Program-made: the position numbers and the translations under genes
Origin: Chthoniobacterales bacterium
GTDB lineage: Bacteria > Verrucomicrobiota > Verrucomicrobiia > Chthoniobacterales > JAATET01
DNA length: 64,000 nucleotides
Assembly (NCBI GenBank): GCA_036569045.1
Contig: DATCRI010000028.1
Coordinates: 1 to 64,000 of the forward strand
Direction: 5' to 3'
Shown: positions 24,609 through 31,791 of the stretch, piece after piece
How positions within the stretch are numbered: position 1 is the stretch's first letter
How the letters are laid out: every line of letters starts with the position of its first letter
Notes under the pieces: model-generated
Told to the model about the DNA's origin: nothing
The model's input: the letters and a program-made list of their open reading frames with translations, nothing else
Database searches by the model: none

Positions 24609-25592
24609 TCAAGCGGCGGGAAGCAATCCGGCCCGCACATTCCACGCGAGCGTCTCCGCCAGCGTCCCGGCAAGCGAGGCAAACGGCTCCGGCGCGTAGC
24701 GCGCGCGAAACTCGGAGCTGTCGAGCACCCAGCGGTCGGGAAAAATCTCGCGCACGCGATCGCGAGTCAGGCTGGGAGCGGCATCGCGAAGCGCCGGCAC
24801 AGCATCGACCACCGCGGAAACCCCGCGCAGCAGCGCATGGGGCAGCGGCAGAATGCGCCCGGGCCGCCCGAGCACATCGGCCGCGGTCTGGATGAGCTCC
24901 CGATCGGTGATCGATTCCGACGCACAGGCCGCCAGCGGCGTGGTCGGGGCGGGCGCGGCATCCTCGAGCGCCCGCAGAATGGCCCGCACGAGGTCGCCGA
25001 CAGCAATCCAGCTGTAGGTCTTCGGCCGCAGCCCAGGCTTGATGCGCACGGCACCGGCGGCCATGCGGAAAAGCGGCAGCGTGGCGCGATCCCGCGGACC
25101 GAGAATCATCGGAGGCCGCCAGACCAGGGTTCCCGGCCGCTCCACGAGGAGACGACGCTCCATCGCGAGCTTGGATGCGCCATACCACGTGAGCGGAGCA
25201 TCCGCGTCGGCCGCCGTTCGCACGATCTGGCCCGCAGGGGTCGGCCCGCCGGCACTTTGCGACGAAAGGACAACCGTGCGCGTGCCAGCGGGCAGGCGCG
25301 TGAGCAGGGCGAGGGATTCGTCGACGTTCACGCGGAAGCATTCCTCGCGACTTCGCGAAAAGAGGACGCCCGCGCAGTGCACGGCGTGGTCCACTGCCGG
25401 CGGCGGCTCGCCCCAGGGCATCACCCGCAGATTTCGGGGCAGTTCGGCAAACCCCTCGAAGGCGAGCTGCCGGGCGAGCTTCCCGGGATCGCGCACGCTG
25501 GCGACGATTTCCTCGTAACGGCCGTCCCGCAGGACCTCGAGCAGAAGGTTGAGTCCGACGAATCCCGTGGCGCCGGTCAGAAACAGGCGCAT
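24609..25592 (-). CDS. NAD(P)-dependent epimerase/dehydratase family protein, candidate ceramide reductase CerR
   Basis: 327-aa extended short-chain dehydrogenase. N-terminal Rossmann motif LFLTGATGFVGLNLLLEVL, catalytic Tyr-Lys in WYGASKLAMERRLL, and the substrate-side VWRPPMILGPRDRA. In Caulobacter an epimerase-like protein (CerR) reduces 3-oxo-ceramide and is encoded near serine palmitoyltransferase and a GNAT-type ceramide synthase. The same three families occur here in order, 5 nt apart, so I infer that role. Any other reductase or epimerase activity cannot be excluded on sequence alone. Confidence 0.8.
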   Translation of the reverse strand: MRLFLTGATGFVGLNLLLEVLRDGRYEEIVASVRDPGKLARQLAFEGFAELPRNLRVMPWGEPPPAVDHAVHCAGVLFSRSREECFRVNVDESLALLTRLPAGTRTVVLSSQSAGGPTPAGQIVRTAADADAPLTWYGASKLAMERRLLVERPGTLVWRPPMILGPRDRATLPLFRMAAGAVRIKPGLRPKTYSWIAVGDLVRAILRALEDAAPAPTTPLAACASESITDRELIQTAADVLGRPGRILPLPHALLRGVSAVVDAVPALRDAAPSLTRDRVREIFPDRWVLDSSEFRARYAPEPFASLAGTLAETLAWNVRAGLLPAA

Positions 25593-25597
25593 GGACG

Positions 25598-26731
25598 TCA
25601 GGCGGCCGCGAAGGGAATCGGGCGCTCGTAGATGCGGAACGTGCGATTGACGAAGCCGCCGAGCAGCTCGCCGTTTGCGATGATTTCCACGTTGTTCTCC
25701 TCCATCCAGCCGAGTTCTGCGGAGGGATAGCGGTCCCGCGCGCGGGCAAATTGCTCTCGCAGCAGCCAGGCGTGCAGACCGCGGTCGCGGAACTGCGGCA
25801 GGATGCCGTAGACCGTCTGGCGGCAGGACGTGATTTTCCGCGTCTTCATGCGCCAGAGAATCACCGGCAGGCGCAGCAGATGCGGCACACGCTGGAGGCC
25901 GTGCAGGATTTGATTGAAATCCGGCAGCGTGAGCGCCACGCCTGCCGGTTCGCCGTCCTTCTCCGCAATGAGGATGATCTTCGCGTCGGCGAAAGCGCGC
26001 ATGTCGTCCGCCGCGCCGAGCAGATCCTCCATGGCGATCGGCACGAAGCCCCAGTTTCGCTCCAGCGTGTCGTTGTAAACCGCGTGCACGATTTCCAGCT
26101 CCTTCTCGAGCTTCGGGAGACTGATCGGACGCACCGTCATCTTCGAGCGCGCGGCGACCCGATTTGCCATCCGCTCGAGCCGTTCGGGTGTCGGCACCCC
26201 GGCCATCGGCAGGTGCATGCCGACGAGGTTTCGCACGCCGACGAAGCCCGCCTGCAGCAGGAGCGGCTCGTAATACGCAGGATTCCACGTGAAGCCGATG
26301 CACGGCGGCTTGTCGTGCGAATCGACGAGCAGGCCGCATTCGTCGTTGATGCTGGGATTGTAGGGCCCGCGCATGGCGGTGAGGCCGTGCTCGCGGAGGA
26401 CGGAGGCGGCGCGATCGAACAAGGCGCGCGCGATCTCGGCATTGTCCTCGCAATCGAAGAAACCGAAGAAGCCCACCGTGTCGCCGTAACGGGCATTGTG
26501 CGAGCGATTGACGACCGCCGCAATGCGTCCGACGACCTTTCCTCCGCGACGCGCGAGGAACGGAAAAATCGTGCCGTGAACCCGCTGAAACGGCGAGTCT
26601 GGCTTCAGGTATTTTGCGACGCTACCGGGAAACGGCGGGATGAAACCCGGTTCCGTTCCGTGCAACGTCTCCGGCACCCTCTCGAAGCGGGTCCGATCCC
26701 TCGGCGTAAGACAGGCTGAAATCGAAAACAT
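25598..26731 (-). CDS. GNAT-superfamily protein, candidate bacterial ceramide synthase (bCerS)
   Basis: About 377 aa. It has the N-terminal pattern of the large GNAT-like family linked to sphingolipid loci (FERVPETLHGTEPGFIPPF), then FLARRGGKVVGRIAAVVNRSHN, then RGPYNPSINDECGLLVD, and a C-terminal GNAT core (ILIAEKDGEPAGVALTLPDF). In Caulobacter a protein of this type acylates the sphingoid base. Its ATG at 26729-26731 lies inside the 3' end of the upstream palmitoyltransferase-like gene (110-bp overlap). The N-terminus aligns with the family pattern, so this start is kept. Function by homology and context only. Confidence 0.78.
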   Translation of the reverse strand: MFSISACLTPRDRTRFERVPETLHGTEPGFIPPFPGSVAKYLKPDSPFQRVHGTIFPFLARRGGKVVGRIAAVVNRSHNARYGDTVGFFGFFDCEDNAEIARALFDRAASVLREHGLTAMRGPYNPSINDECGLLVDSHDKPPCIGFTWNPAYYEPLLLQAGFVGVRNLVGMHLPMAGVPTPERLERMANRVAARSKMTVRPISLPKLEKELEIVHAVYNDTLERNWGFVPIAMEDLLGAADDMRAFADAKIILIAEKDGEPAGVALTLPDFNQILHGLQRVPHLLRLPVILWRMKTRKITSCRQTVYGILPQFRDRGLHAWLLREQFARARDRYPSAELGWMEENNVEIIANGELLGGFVNRTFRIYERPIPFAAA

Positions 26732-28016
26732 TTTTGCGGCGGCCGGGTTCTGAATATGCGGGGTCGTCGAAGGTGCCAAGCTCCCTCGCCAGCCGGGCAA
26801 AGATATCCAGCACGCGGTCGAGATCTTCGTCCGTATGCGTGGCCATGAAACTTGTGCGAACGATCGCCTCGCCGTAGCGGACGGCCGGGTAGATCGCCGG
26901 CGTGGCAAACACGCCCTCCTCGTAAAGACGCTGGGTGAACTGGAACGCCCGCGCCTCGCTGCCGATGAGAATCGGGACGATCGGCGTCTGCGTGGTGCCG
27001 ATCTTGAAGCCGAGCGACTTGAAGCCCTCGTGCATCTTGCGGGTATTGCGCCACAGCGCGTCGATCCGCTCGGGCTCGCTCTGCATGAGCTCGAGCGCCT
27101 TCAGCACGCCCCCCGCCACCGCGGGCGCCAGCGAAGCCGTGAAAATGAAGCAGCGCGCCTTGTGCCGGAGAAATTCGATGACTTCCTTCGAGCCGGCGAT
27201 GAAGCCGCCCATCGAGCCAAGCGACTTCGAGAACGTGCCCATCACGAGGTCGACATCGTCGTTCACGCCAAAATGGTGCACCGTGCCGCGACCGAGCGGC
27301 CCGAGCACGCCCAGGGCGTGAGCCTCGTCGACGTAGGTGAGCGCGCCGTATTCCTTCGCGGCCTCGATGATTGGCGGAAGGTCCGCAATGTCGCCCGACA
27401 TGCTGAAGACGCCGTCGAGGACCACCAGCTTGCCGGTCGCCTCGGGCAGACGCTTCATCCGGTTCCGCAGCGAGACGGCGGAATTGTGGCGAAAGGGGAC
27501 GAGCTTGGCCGGAGCGAACTGGCAGCCATCGATGATGCTCGCGTGGTTCTCGCGGTCGCAGAGAATCGCATCGTCGTCCTCGGTGAGAGTGGCCAGGGCG
27601 CCCTGGTTTGCAAAAAAGCCGGTCGAGAAGAGGAGCACCGCCTCGCGCTGGAGGAATGTCGCCAGGGCTTCCTCGAGCTGCTCGTGCAGGCGGATGTTGC
27701 CGTTGAGCAAGCGGGAGCCCGTGCAACCGGAACCAAACCGCCGCACCGCATCACAGGCCGCCTCGACCACGCGCTCGTCCTGAGCGAGGCCGAGGTAGTT
27801 GTTCGACCCGATCATGATCTTCTCGGCCCCGTCGCAAACGACGTGATTGCCTGCCGTGTCGTCGATGCGGCGAAAATATGGATAAAAGCCCTGGGCTCGT
27901 GCGTCGGCGGAATCCCGATAATCCCGGCACTTTTGTGTTAAATCTTTCGCCACCTTGGAAATAATAGACCGTTCTTTCGCACGAATTTGTGCCGTCTCAA
28001 TCCATTTCGTCTCCAA
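26622..28016 (-). CDS. PLP-dependent alpha-oxoamine synthase, serine palmitoyltransferase-like
   Basis: 464 aa from TTG at 28016, which has GGAGG 4 nt upstream; GTG at 27953 is an alternative. The family joins an amino acid to an acyl thioester. Seen: GSNNYLGLAQDERV, GSGCTGSRLLNGN, DEAHALGVLGP (Asp/His of the PLP site), catalytic Lys about residue 264 in GTFSKSLGSMGGF, and CFIFTASLAPAV. The last segment resembles Sphingomonas SPT (YIFTASLPPSV). Followed by GNAT and SDR genes, it is best read as SPT starting ceramide synthesis. AONS (BioF) or KBL are less likely given the neighbours. Confidence 0.85.
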   Translation of the reverse strand: METKWIETAQIRAKERSIISKVAKDLTQKCRDYRDSADARAQGFYPYFRRIDDTAGNHVVCDGAEKIMIGSNNYLGLAQDERVVEAACDAVRRFGSGCTGSRLLNGNIRLHEQLEEALATFLQREAVLLFSTGFFANQGALATLTEDDDAILCDRENHASIIDGCQFAPAKLVPFRHNSAVSLRNRMKRLPEATGKLVVLDGVFSMSGDIADLPPIIEAAKEYGALTYVDEAHALGVLGPLGRGTVHHFGVNDDVDLVMGTFSKSLGSMGGFIAGSKEVIEFLRHKARCFIFTASLAPAVAGGVLKALELMQSEPERIDALWRNTRKMHEGFKSLGFKIGTTQTPIVPILIGSEARAFQFTQRLYEEGVFATPAIYPAVRYGEAIVRTSFMATHTDEDLDRVLDIFARLARELGTFDDPAYSEPGRRKNVFDFSLSYAEGSDPLREGAGDVARNGTGFHPAVSR

Positions 28017-28149
28017 AAGCCCTCCGTATCAATCAAAAAGGAGAGCCTCGCATGATCGGAGAGCACGAACCGAGGCAAGGGAAGCGAATCCCGTGCCAGT
28101 GATTACGCCGCTTGCCAGCACCGGTTTTCTCGGTCACTGTCTGGCCCCT

Positions 28150-28223
28150 CGGGGCGTAGCTTAGCTTGGTAGAGCGCCTGGTTTGGGACCAGGAGGTCGC
28201 AGGTTCGAATCCTGTCGCCCCGA
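28150..28223 (+). tRNA. tRNA-Pro (anticodon UGG)
   Basis: 74-nt cloverleaf: acceptor stem CGGGGCG/CGCCCCG with discriminator A, D arm around TAGCTTAGCTTGGTAGAGC, anticodon stem CCTGG/CCAGG with loop TTTGGGA (anticodon TGG), and T arm with GGTTCGAATCC. CCA is not encoded. It is followed by TTTTCTT and an inverted repeat of its own 3' strand, probably a terminator. Confidence 0.97.
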
Positions 28224-28339
28224 TTTTCTTCGACAGGATGAGAACAATCGTTCGACCGCCCGCGCGCGAGCGCCTCCTTTCGCGAAGTCCCGCTCGCGGA
28301 GCCCGGCATTTGCCGGGATAATCCTGTCGCCCCGATTTT
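28208..28339. repeat. Duplicated tRNA-Pro 3' end flanking a 92-bp insert
   Basis: A 20-nt sequence covering the tRNA-Pro 3' end and following T run (AATCCTGTCGCCCCGATTTT) occurs at 28208-28227 and again at 28320-28339. A 9-bp inverted copy of ATCCTGTCG lies between them at 28231-28239. The insert also holds a CCCGGCA/TGCCGGG hairpin at 28302-28317. This is the geometry of an att-like duplication left by a mobile element, or of a repeat using the tRNA end. Confidence 0.8.
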
Positions 28340-29109: not shown

Positions 29110-31791
29110 ATGAATCCGCCGGTTGGCACCATCACTTTCCTCTTCAGCGACATCGAGGGCAGCACCCGCCTCTGGGAGCAGCATTCGGAGGCGATGCGCC
29201 TGTCCCTGCGCCGACACGACGAGATCCTGCGCAATGCGATGGAGTCGCACCACGGCTTCGTCTTCAAGACGATCGGCGACGCCTTCTGCGTAGCCTTCGA
29301 TCGCGCCGGCGACGCCTTTGCCGCCGCCGCCCAGGTGCAGCACGAATTGCACGAAGAGGAATGGGGCCCAACCGGGCCGCTGAAGGTGCGCATGGCCCTG
29401 CACGTCGGCGCGGCCGAATTCCGCGACGGCGACTACTACGGCAACAGCCTCAATCGCGTCGCCCGCATTCTCGCCGCCGCGCATGGCGGTCAGGTGCTGC
29501 TTTCGCTGCCGGTCGAGGAACTCGTCCGCGACCACATCGCGCCCGGCCTCATGCTGCGCGACCTGGGCGAGCGCCGCCTGCGCGACCTCATTCGCCCGGA
29601 GCATCTCTTCCAGCTCGTTCTTGCCGGCCTGCCGGCGGACTTCCCGCCGCTGCGCTCGCTGGAAGTCACGCCGAACAATCTTCCGACGCTGTTGAATACC
29701 TTCGTCGGCCGCGGCCAGGAGCGCGACACCGTGAAGCAGTTGCTCGCGACCACTCGCCTGCTCACGCTCACCGGCACCGGCGGCACGGGCAAGACGCGCC
29801 TCTCCATTCAGGTCGCCGAGGAATCCCTCGCCGAATATCCCGACGGCGTCTGGCTCGTGGAACTCGCGACCATTTCCGATCCCGACCGCATCGTCGAACT
29901 CATGGCCGAGACCGTGGGCCAGCGCGAGGAACCCGGCGAATCCCGCCGCGCCGCGCTCATCCGCTACCTCTGCGGCCGGCGCATGCTTCTCATCATCGAC
30001 AACTGCGAGCACCTGCTCGAGGCCTGCGCCGATCTCGTCGCCGAAATGCTCCGCAGCTGCAGCACCATCCGCATTCTCGCGACCAGCCGCGCCTCGCTCG
30101 GCATCGCGGGCGAACGCACCTGGGCCGTGCCGCCGCTCAGCGTGCTGAATCCCGCCCGGGACCTCTTTCAGATTTCCGACATCGTCGGCGTGGTGTCCCA
30201 ATACGAGGCCGTTCGCCTTTTCATCGACCGCGCCGCCGCCGTGAAGCCCGGCTTCGAAGTCACCCGGCAGAACGCCGCCGCCATCGCCCAGATCTGCTGG
30301 CGACTCGACGGCATCCCGCTCGCGATCGAGCTCGCCGCCGCCCGCGCCCGCGTCCTCACGCCGGAACAGATCGCCCAGCGCCTCGACGACCGCTTTCGCC
30401 TGCTCACCGGCGGCGGCCGCTCCGTCCTGCCGCACCAGCAGACGCTGCGCACGCTCATCGACTGGAGCTACGACCTGCTCTCCGAGAGCGAGCGCGTGCT
30501 CTTTCGCCGACTCGGCGTCTTCGGCGGCGGCCGCACGATCGAGGCCATCGAGGCCGTCTGCACCGGCGACGGCGTCGACACCTACGACGCGCTCGACCTG
30601 CTCCAGCTCCTCGTCGACAAGTCGCTCCTCAGCGTCGAATCGGACGCCACCGACGCGACCCGTTACACGATGATCGAGTCCGTCTGGCAATACGCCCGCG
30701 AGCGCCTCGAAGCCTCCGGCGAATTCCCGGCGCTGCGCGACCGCCACCTCGATTACTTCCTCGTCCTCGCCGAAGAGGCCCGCCCCCAGCTCGAGAGCCT
30801 CAGCACCGCAAGGTGGCTCGACCGCGTCGGCTCCGACATCTTCAACTTCCGCCTCGCCTTCGACTGGGCCGCCGCCAGCACTCCGGAAAACACGCAGAAG
30901 GGACTGCGCATCGTCGCCGCCCTCACCCGTTACATCGAGATCCGTGGCAACTTCGAGGAAGGCAAGGCCGTCATCGAAGATCTGCTCGGGGCTCCCGGCG
31001 CCGAAGCCCCCACGCTCGCCCGCGCCGAGTCGCTCGTCGGCGCCGGCCGCATCGCCTGGTGCCGCGACAATTCCGAGGCGGCCGTCGGCTACTACCGCGA
31101 GGGCGTCGCCCTGTTCGAAAAGCTCGGCCGCACACGCGACGCCATCTTTCACAACGCCTTGCTCGGCTTCGTGGAAACCAACATCGGCATCACCGACGGC
31201 GTCGAAGAGCGCTTCCGGCGCGCGCTGGAGGCTGGCCGCGAACTTCAGGATGTCAGCCTCACCGCGATCGGCCTCAGCGGCATGGGAAGTTTTGCGGCGC
31301 GGCGCGGCGACAATACCGAGGCCCGGCGCCTGCGCGAGGAGAGCCTCGCGATCTACCGCTCGACCGGCGATCAATGGATCTCCGGCTACCTGCTCTGGGG
31401 CATTGCGAAGGCCTGCGCCATCGACGGCGATGCTCCCGCCGCCCGCGCGGCGCTCGAGGAATGGACGGCCATCGCCCGGAAGTTCGGCAACCGCTGGGTC
31501 ACTCCCTACCTCCTCCAGATTTTTGCCGAAGTCCTCCTCATCGAGAAAGACGCCCCCGCTGCCGCCCGGGTTCTCGGCGCCTCCGAGGCCGGCCGCGAAG
31601 CCCTCGGCATCACGCTCGACGTCATCGATCGCGCCGACTGGGAGCGAACGGTGAGCACGCTCGGCCGCGAGCTGGATGCCCCGGCCCGGCTGCGCGAATG
31701 GAATACCGGCCGCCAGCTCGGCCTCTGGGAGGCCATCGACTTCGCCATTCACAACCGCAAGAGATCCGCCGCCGCAGCCGTCGCGGCCTGA
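29110..31791 (+). CDS. Class III nucleotidyl cyclase fused to NB-ARC-like ATPase and TPR region
   Basis: 893 aa. Residues 1-175 form a class III cyclase: metal Asp13 in FLFSDIEGST, Lys53 in FKTIGD, second metal Asp57, and the transition-state Asn115/Arg119 in GNSLNRVARI, so it appears catalytically intact. Residues about 200-480 carry a STAND-type NTPase: Walker A TGTGGTGKT (221-229), Walker B LLIIDNCEHL (about 293-302), and SRASLGIAGER. The C-terminal 400 aa are helical, TPR-like. No DNA-binding domain is seen. It could be a signal-gated cyclase; ligand and output are unknown. Confidence 0.9.
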   Translation: MNPPVGTITFLFSDIEGSTRLWEQHSEAMRLSLRRHDEILRNAMESHHGFVFKTIGDAFCVAFDRAGDAFAAAAQVQHELHEEEWGPTGPLKVRMALHVGAAEFRDGDYYGNSLNRVARILAAAHGGQVLLSLPVEELVRDHIAPGLMLRDLGERRLRDLIRPEHLFQLVLAGLPADFPPLRSLEVTPNNLPTLLNTFVGRGQERDTVKQLLATTRLLTLTGTGGTGKTRLSIQVAEESLAEYPDGVWLVELATISDPDRIVELMAETVGQREEPGESRRAALIRYLCGRRMLLIIDNCEHLLEACADLVAEMLRSCSTIRILATSRASLGIAGERTWAVPPLSVLNPARDLFQISDIVGVVSQYEAVRLFIDRAAAVKPGFEVTRQNAAAIAQICWRLDGIPLAIELAAARARVLTPEQIAQRLDDRFRLLTGGGRSVLPHQQTLRTLIDWSYDLLSESERVLFRRLGVFGGGRTIEAIEAVCTGDGVDTYDALDLLQLLVDKSLLSVESDATDATRYTMIESVWQYARERLEASGEFPALRDRHLDYFLVLAEEARPQLESLSTARWLDRVGSDIFNFRLAFDWAAASTPENTQKGLRIVAALTRYIEIRGNFEEGKAVIEDLLGAPGAEAPTLARAESLVGAGRIAWCRDNSEAAVGYYREGVALFEKLGRTRDAIFHNALLGFVETNIGITDGVEERFRRALEAGRELQDVSLTAIGLSGMGSFAARRGDNTEARRLREESLAIYRSTGDQWISGYLLWGIAKACAIDGDAPAARAALEEWTAIARKFGNRWVTPYLLQIFAEVLLIEKDAPAAARVLGASEAGREALGITLDVIDRADWERTVSTLGRELDAPARLREWNTGRQLGLWEAIDFAIHNRKRSAAAAVAA

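Follow-up and report, generated by a model that had tools for sequence, protein, structure and literature searches.

Three adjacent genes in a genome of the Chthoniobacterales (Verrucomicrobiota) very likely form an operon for the synthesis of ceramide. They belong to the three enzyme families of the Caulobacter ceramide pathway, serine palmitoyltransferase (SPT), bacterial ceramide synthase (bCerS) and ceramide reductase (CerR), and the profile, tree, active-site and context tests agree on their presence, although the SPT is of a different type from that of Caulobacter. Judging from the matches of the three genes, this poorly known group very probably produces sphingolipids. The bacterial ceramide pathway is already known (PMC11087976, PMC9386255) and Verrucomicrobiota have already been predicted to have it; new here are the structure of the operon, the overlap of its first two genes and its distribution among the Chthoniobacterales.

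The three-gene locus

The window, the whole stretch of 64,000 nucleotides that was analysed, lies on contig 28 of a 3.43-Mb draft genome that is 98 % complete. The genes follow each other on the minus strand in the order SPT, bCerS (tandem GNAT) and CerR (extended SDR), with these features:

26622..28016, minus strand: SPT (alpha-oxoamine synthase, PLP), 464 aa, TTG start at 28016, stop ends at 26622
25598..26731, minus strand: bCerS/YghO family, predicted tandem GNAT fold, 377 aa, ATG at 26731, stop ends at 25598
24609..25592, minus strand: CerR candidate, extended SDR, 327 aa, ATG at 25592, stop ends at 24609
26622..26731, minus strand: overlap of the SPT 3' end and the bCerS 5' end, 110 bp, two frames
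28149-28224, plus strand (opposite to the operon): tRNA-Pro, just upstream of SPT
downstream of CerR: MBL-fold gene, then purD

The TTG start of SPT is preceded by GGAGG, and bCerS and CerR are separated by 5 nt. The sequence-only reading had proposed this gene order, a 110-bp overlap of the SPT and GNAT genes and a 5-nt gap before the SDR gene. Its open reading frames proved correct to the base, the overlap was recovered at 26731-26622, and the SDR ATG at 25592 lies 5 nt beyond the end of the GNAT stop at 25598. The three frames are more than chance open reading frames, because they recur, conserved and in unchanged order, in other Chthoniobacterales and in other phyla; in one Chthoniobacterales locus (L045), identity is about 87 % for SPT, 76 % for bCerS and 70 % for CerR. 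The MBL-fold, purD and S41 genes were considered as members of the pathway and rejected, since they lie 3' of the operon only in the closest relatives. Elsewhere in the window, positions 29110-31791 encode a STAND-type signalling protein of 893 aa, which combines an adenylate/guanylate cyclase domain with an AAA/NB-ARC-type ATPase domain and TPRs.

Probable serine palmitoyltransferase

The evidence on the first gene supports an SPT of the Bacteroidota-like type and not of the Caulobacter type. Its top NCBIfam model is SPT-CFB (NF047600, Bacteroidota-type SPT) with 480 bits, against 391/319 bits for the KBL (glycine C-acetyltransferase) models and 385 bits for BioF. The score does not reach the 640 bits required by NF047600, a cut-off set for naming close relatives and not a biochemical feature; SPT-like proteins from Rubrobacter and Acidobacteriota likewise stay under the curated NCBIfam SPT cut-offs. 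In the PDB, the best match is the SPT of Sphingobacterium multivorum (397 bits), followed by Sphingomonas-type SPTs (287-299 bits), E. coli KBL (267 bits), cysteate acyltransferases (224-238 bits) and E. coli BioF (<200 bits). The sequence-only reading, which had recognized an SPT-like protein by its PLP lysine in GTFSKSLGS, named best hits to BioF or KBL as grounds for giving up this identity; the hits found favour SPT over KBL, and the best characterised match is the Sphingobacterium enzyme.

The alignment with S. multivorum SPT extends over 384 residues without gaps at 46 % identity, and N72, H158, D230, H233, K264 (the PLP lysine), A294 and R387 match between the two proteins; the roles of the Lys, His, Asp, His, Asn and Arg residues of the SPT active site have been described (PMC9304779). 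SulA, a cysteate acyltransferase, carries a lysine (Lys281) where SPTs have alanine (PMC9304779), and the equivalent K+30 position of the window protein is alanine (A294), as in SPT. Residues 416-464 form a C-terminal extension, beyond the region that aligns with S. multivorum SPT.

A maximum-likelihood tree places the protein within the SPT clade. Its neighbours there are Rubrobacter and Zixibacteria, and the Bacteroidota/Acidobacteriota group, to which S. multivorum SPT belongs, lies close by; some branches are long, so that the exact position is uncertain. Outside this clade fall KBL and BioF of E. coli, BioF/KBL of Thermus and the BioF of the window genome itself; ALAS was left out of the tree and scores below SPT in the NCBIfam and PDB searches.

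The type of SPT also bears on the carrier genes. ACP has been argued to be the acyl carrier for the donor (PMC9304779), and acpR and aasR have been described with the proteobacterial SPT group, the SPTs of Bacteroidota and deltaproteobacteria forming another group (PMC9386255). No gene for an ACP or acyl-ACP synthetase adjoins the operon, as the earlier reading had pointed out. With the E. coli aasR product as query, no full-length homolog was found anywhere in the genome (partial matches <=40 bits), and PP-binding domains are encoded elsewhere in the genome, not at the operon. The absence itself thus stands, but it is not odd: it is expected because the window SPT belongs with the Bacteroidota/deltaproteobacterial kind, and the pair goes with the proteobacterial one.

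Probable ceramide synthase and candidate ceramide reductase

Searches of Pfam, NCBIfam and PDB sequences with the second gene gave no matches. Its nearest named relatives are from Terrimicrobiaceae bacterium STA_90 (75 % identity) and Chthoniobacterales bacterium bin_113 (72 %), both of them MAGs; two genomes assigned to the genus of the window organism give these same match figures, so that the organism is taken to be a member of the Chthoniobacterales. Among the full-length relatives found by tblastn are E. coli YghO (26.8 % identity, E = 2e-42, 94 % coverage) and an N-acetyltransferase in the spt locus of Sphingomonas parapaucimobilis. The genes yghO (ECD_02850) and CC_1154 are listed together as the N-acyltransferase gene 'aca', needed for dihydroceramide (PMC9386255). 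By way of homologs in E. coli and Sphingomonas, together with this published gene table, the second and third genes are tied to Caulobacter CC_1154 and CC_1164. An AlphaFold model built with 36 relatives as input (mean pLDDT 88.7, pTM 0.88) has its best PDB matches among tandem GNAT structures. Membership in the YghO/CC_1154 (bCerS) family is supported, N-acylation being the predicted activity, and the GNAT-like bCerS candidate of the sequence-only reading holds good. Some other Chthoniobacterales genomes (G230, G236, G261, G289) carry two to four bCerS-family matches each, arranged in tandem on contig 379 of G289.

The third gene matches Pfam Epimerase and contains TGATGFVG and YGASK, the TGxxGxxG and YxxxK motifs of extended SDRs; TGxxGFxG, SSxxA and SK are invariant between it and the E. 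coli and Sphingomonas homologs. The protein belongs to a very large superfamily and is no more than 23-31 % identical to the CerRs found outside the order. In the tree, the gene groups with operon-linked CerRs, including the 'epi' genes of E. coli and Sphingomonas, with a support of 95/97; the profile used to pick the rows contained operon members, which made the selection non-independent, but SDR paralogs of the window genome were free to intrude and all fell outside the clade. The interior of the CerR clade has long branches and is partly unresolved. The alternatives that the sequence-only reading had named for these two genes, a sugar epimerase for the third and an unrelated acetyltransferase for the second, were not what was found: the second protein is a member of the YghO/CC_1154 family and the third belongs to the operon-linked CerR clade, apart from the SDR paralogs of its own genome. 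The N-terminus of the third protein shows no signal sequence ahead of the Rossmann motif, and the enzyme may work in the cytoplasm, unlike Caulobacter CerR, which is periplasmic (PMC11087976).

The overlap of the first two genes

Within bCerS, the SPT stop lies at one and the same position in 17 genomes, 64 nt after the codon for F16. Because the overlap encodes the conserved bCerS residues F16 and P33, the start of bCerS has to lie upstream of this stop, which fits the ATG at 26731. Pairwise mismatch at bCerS third positions, which in the overlap are first positions of SPT, is 0.295 there versus 0.573 downstream. When bCerS is randomly re-coded with synonymous codons, the SPT frame stays open in 22-38 % of trials, and the same SPT stop is retained in 1-2 %. 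Given the shared stop, the low wobble mismatch and the re-coding trials, both frames look constrained. One lineage (L048, L123, L124, L128) has the SPT extension without the overlap.

The dual-coding junction probably couples the translation of SPT and bCerS. A fuller scenario is put forward only tentatively: the conserved SPT extension of the Chthoniobacterales (motif GTFDDPAY..PGRRKNVFDF) might have been overprinted on the start of bCerS, coupling their translation, with the enzymes perhaps made in a fixed ratio or held in a complex and CerR perhaps cytoplasmic.

Distribution of the three genes

The order SPT-bCerS-CerR was found in Chthoniobacterales, Acidobacteriota and Bacteroidota (Mucilaginibacter, Parapedobacter, Sphingobacteriaceae, Cyclobacteriaceae) and also on plasmids of Rubrobacter and Streptomyces (Actinomycetota); the flanking genes vary among lineages while the order holds. 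The compact three-gene operon is therefore common and not special to the window organism, which corrects the sequence-only reading. On the plasmid of Streptomyces sp. NBC_01001 (L043, 3733-8259), the three genes are followed by one for a condensation-domain protein, possibly a sign of a further modified ceramide, and on that of Rubrobacter radiotolerans (L040, 4746-10338) by an LTA-synthase-family gene that might, as a guess, add a phosphoglycerol headgroup.

Within the Chthoniobacterales, the genes occur almost all-or-none. Strong matches to SPT, bCerS and CerR were present in 63, 64 and 62 of 197 genomes, respectively, after exclusion of a bCerS-like match in a further family (f2) that was weaker (about 30 % identity). 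All three were found together in 59 genomes (59/65 of those with any), one or two in 6, and none in 132. Every pair co-occurs with a Fisher p < 1e-43 across the 197 genomes, a value that ignores shared ancestry. In 17 genomes, CerR is not adjacent to bCerS, yet is present.

Proposed pathway and alternatives

In the proposed pathway, SPT would form a 3-keto long-chain base by condensing L-serine with an acyl thioester, either acyl-CoA or a housekeeping acyl-ACP. The tandem-GNAT bCerS would N-acylate this base from a second acyl thioester, and the SDR CerR would then reduce the 3-keto group with NAD(P)H, yielding dihydroceramide. Even for Caulobacter, there is disagreement on which of the last two steps comes first. 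A variant with the same enzymes lets the reductase act before the acyltransferase, as in eukaryotes (3-ketosphinganine to sphinganine, which is then N-acylated); this order, which another group has put forward for Caulobacter (cited in PMC11087976), is a possible though doubtful one here, where a CerR lacking a signal sequence could be a cytoplasmic reductase acting on the free base. Against it, deletion of cerR in Caulobacter leads to the accumulation of oxidised ceramide, and CerR is periplasmic there (PMC11087976).

A larger departure would be a sphingolipid-like lipid built from another amino acid: cysteate, for a sulfonolipid, or alanine or glycine, for a 1-deoxyceramide. The alpha-oxoamine synthase family does include such enzymes, and in the same phylum bCerS-family genes adjoin divergent synthases (L014, L017, L019, L020, L022), but the alanine at K+30 in place of the lysine of SulA (PMC9304779), the lower scores of cysteate acyltransferases relative to SPT and the position of the protein within the SPT clade make such a product unlikely, and a sulfonolipid was rejected at the SulA Lys281 position itself. 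It is highly improbable that the first gene is a KBL/BioF paralog that happens to share an operon with an unrelated acetyltransferase and a sugar epimerase. All three genes do belong to large superfamilies, and the NCBIfam KBL and BioF models exceed 300 bits on the first; the genome, however, holds a separate BioF above the curated cut-off (L004), which together with the tree led to the rejection of a KBL/BioF identity, and a chance operon fits poorly with a gene order kept across four phyla and with nearly all-or-none co-occurrence. Ceramide synthesis from serine accordingly is the preferred reading.

In a genome of another Verrucomicrobiota member (G186, locus L022), an alpha-oxoamine synthase (181-1452) with lysine at the SulA Lys281 position lies beside a bCerS-family gene (1462-2408); its best PDB matches are SPT (281 bits) and SulA/cysteate acyltransferase (262 and 252 bits), and it might belong to a sulfonolipid operon outside the Bacteroidota. 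In family f8 of the same class (L014, L017, L019, L020), a divergent alpha-oxoamine synthase stands directly beside a bCerS-family gene. These enzymes have valine at the Lys281 position where it could be read, the BioF model is best in the two that were scanned, and they form a clade with a synthase from a plasmid of Acidisoma (L041); they may use a different amino acid and so give a different lipid.

Relation to known systems and significance

The same three families, SPT, YghO/bCerS and an extended SDR, are known from Caulobacter crescentus and from Alpha-, Beta- and Gammaproteobacteria (CC_1162, CC_1154, CC_1164 in Caulobacter; ECD_02854, yghO and ECD_02852 in E. coli BL21). In proteobacteria, the genes are dispersed in a larger locus that also contains acpR and aasR, and the SPT is of the proteobacterial type, whereas the window has a Bacteroidota-like SPT in a compact operon without these two genes. 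Closer in layout is the cassette of Sphingobacteriaceae and Cyclobacteriaceae (L062, L071, L072, L074, L082), which has the same genes in the same order and an SPT 42-46 % identical to that of the window, but a CerR only about 25 % identical and no 110-bp overlap. In the Black Sea, 22 Verrucomicrobiota MAGs with Spt-like proteins have been counted among the predicted sphingolipid producers (PMC11334938); that study inferred producers from metagenomes and gave counts per phylum, while the present analysis adds operon structure, overlap and distribution within the Chthoniobacterales. A literature search that covered few subscription papers found no report of measured sphingolipids in a Verrucomicrobiota isolate.

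The conserved dual-coding junction is an unusual and testable genetic detail, and the presence of the lipid, if the reading is true, could be tested directly in cultured species. If the proposed function of the operon holds, ceramide production would be a general trait of several Chthoniobacterales families, and sphingolipids in environmental samples could then less easily be ascribed to Bacteroidota or Proteobacteria alone.
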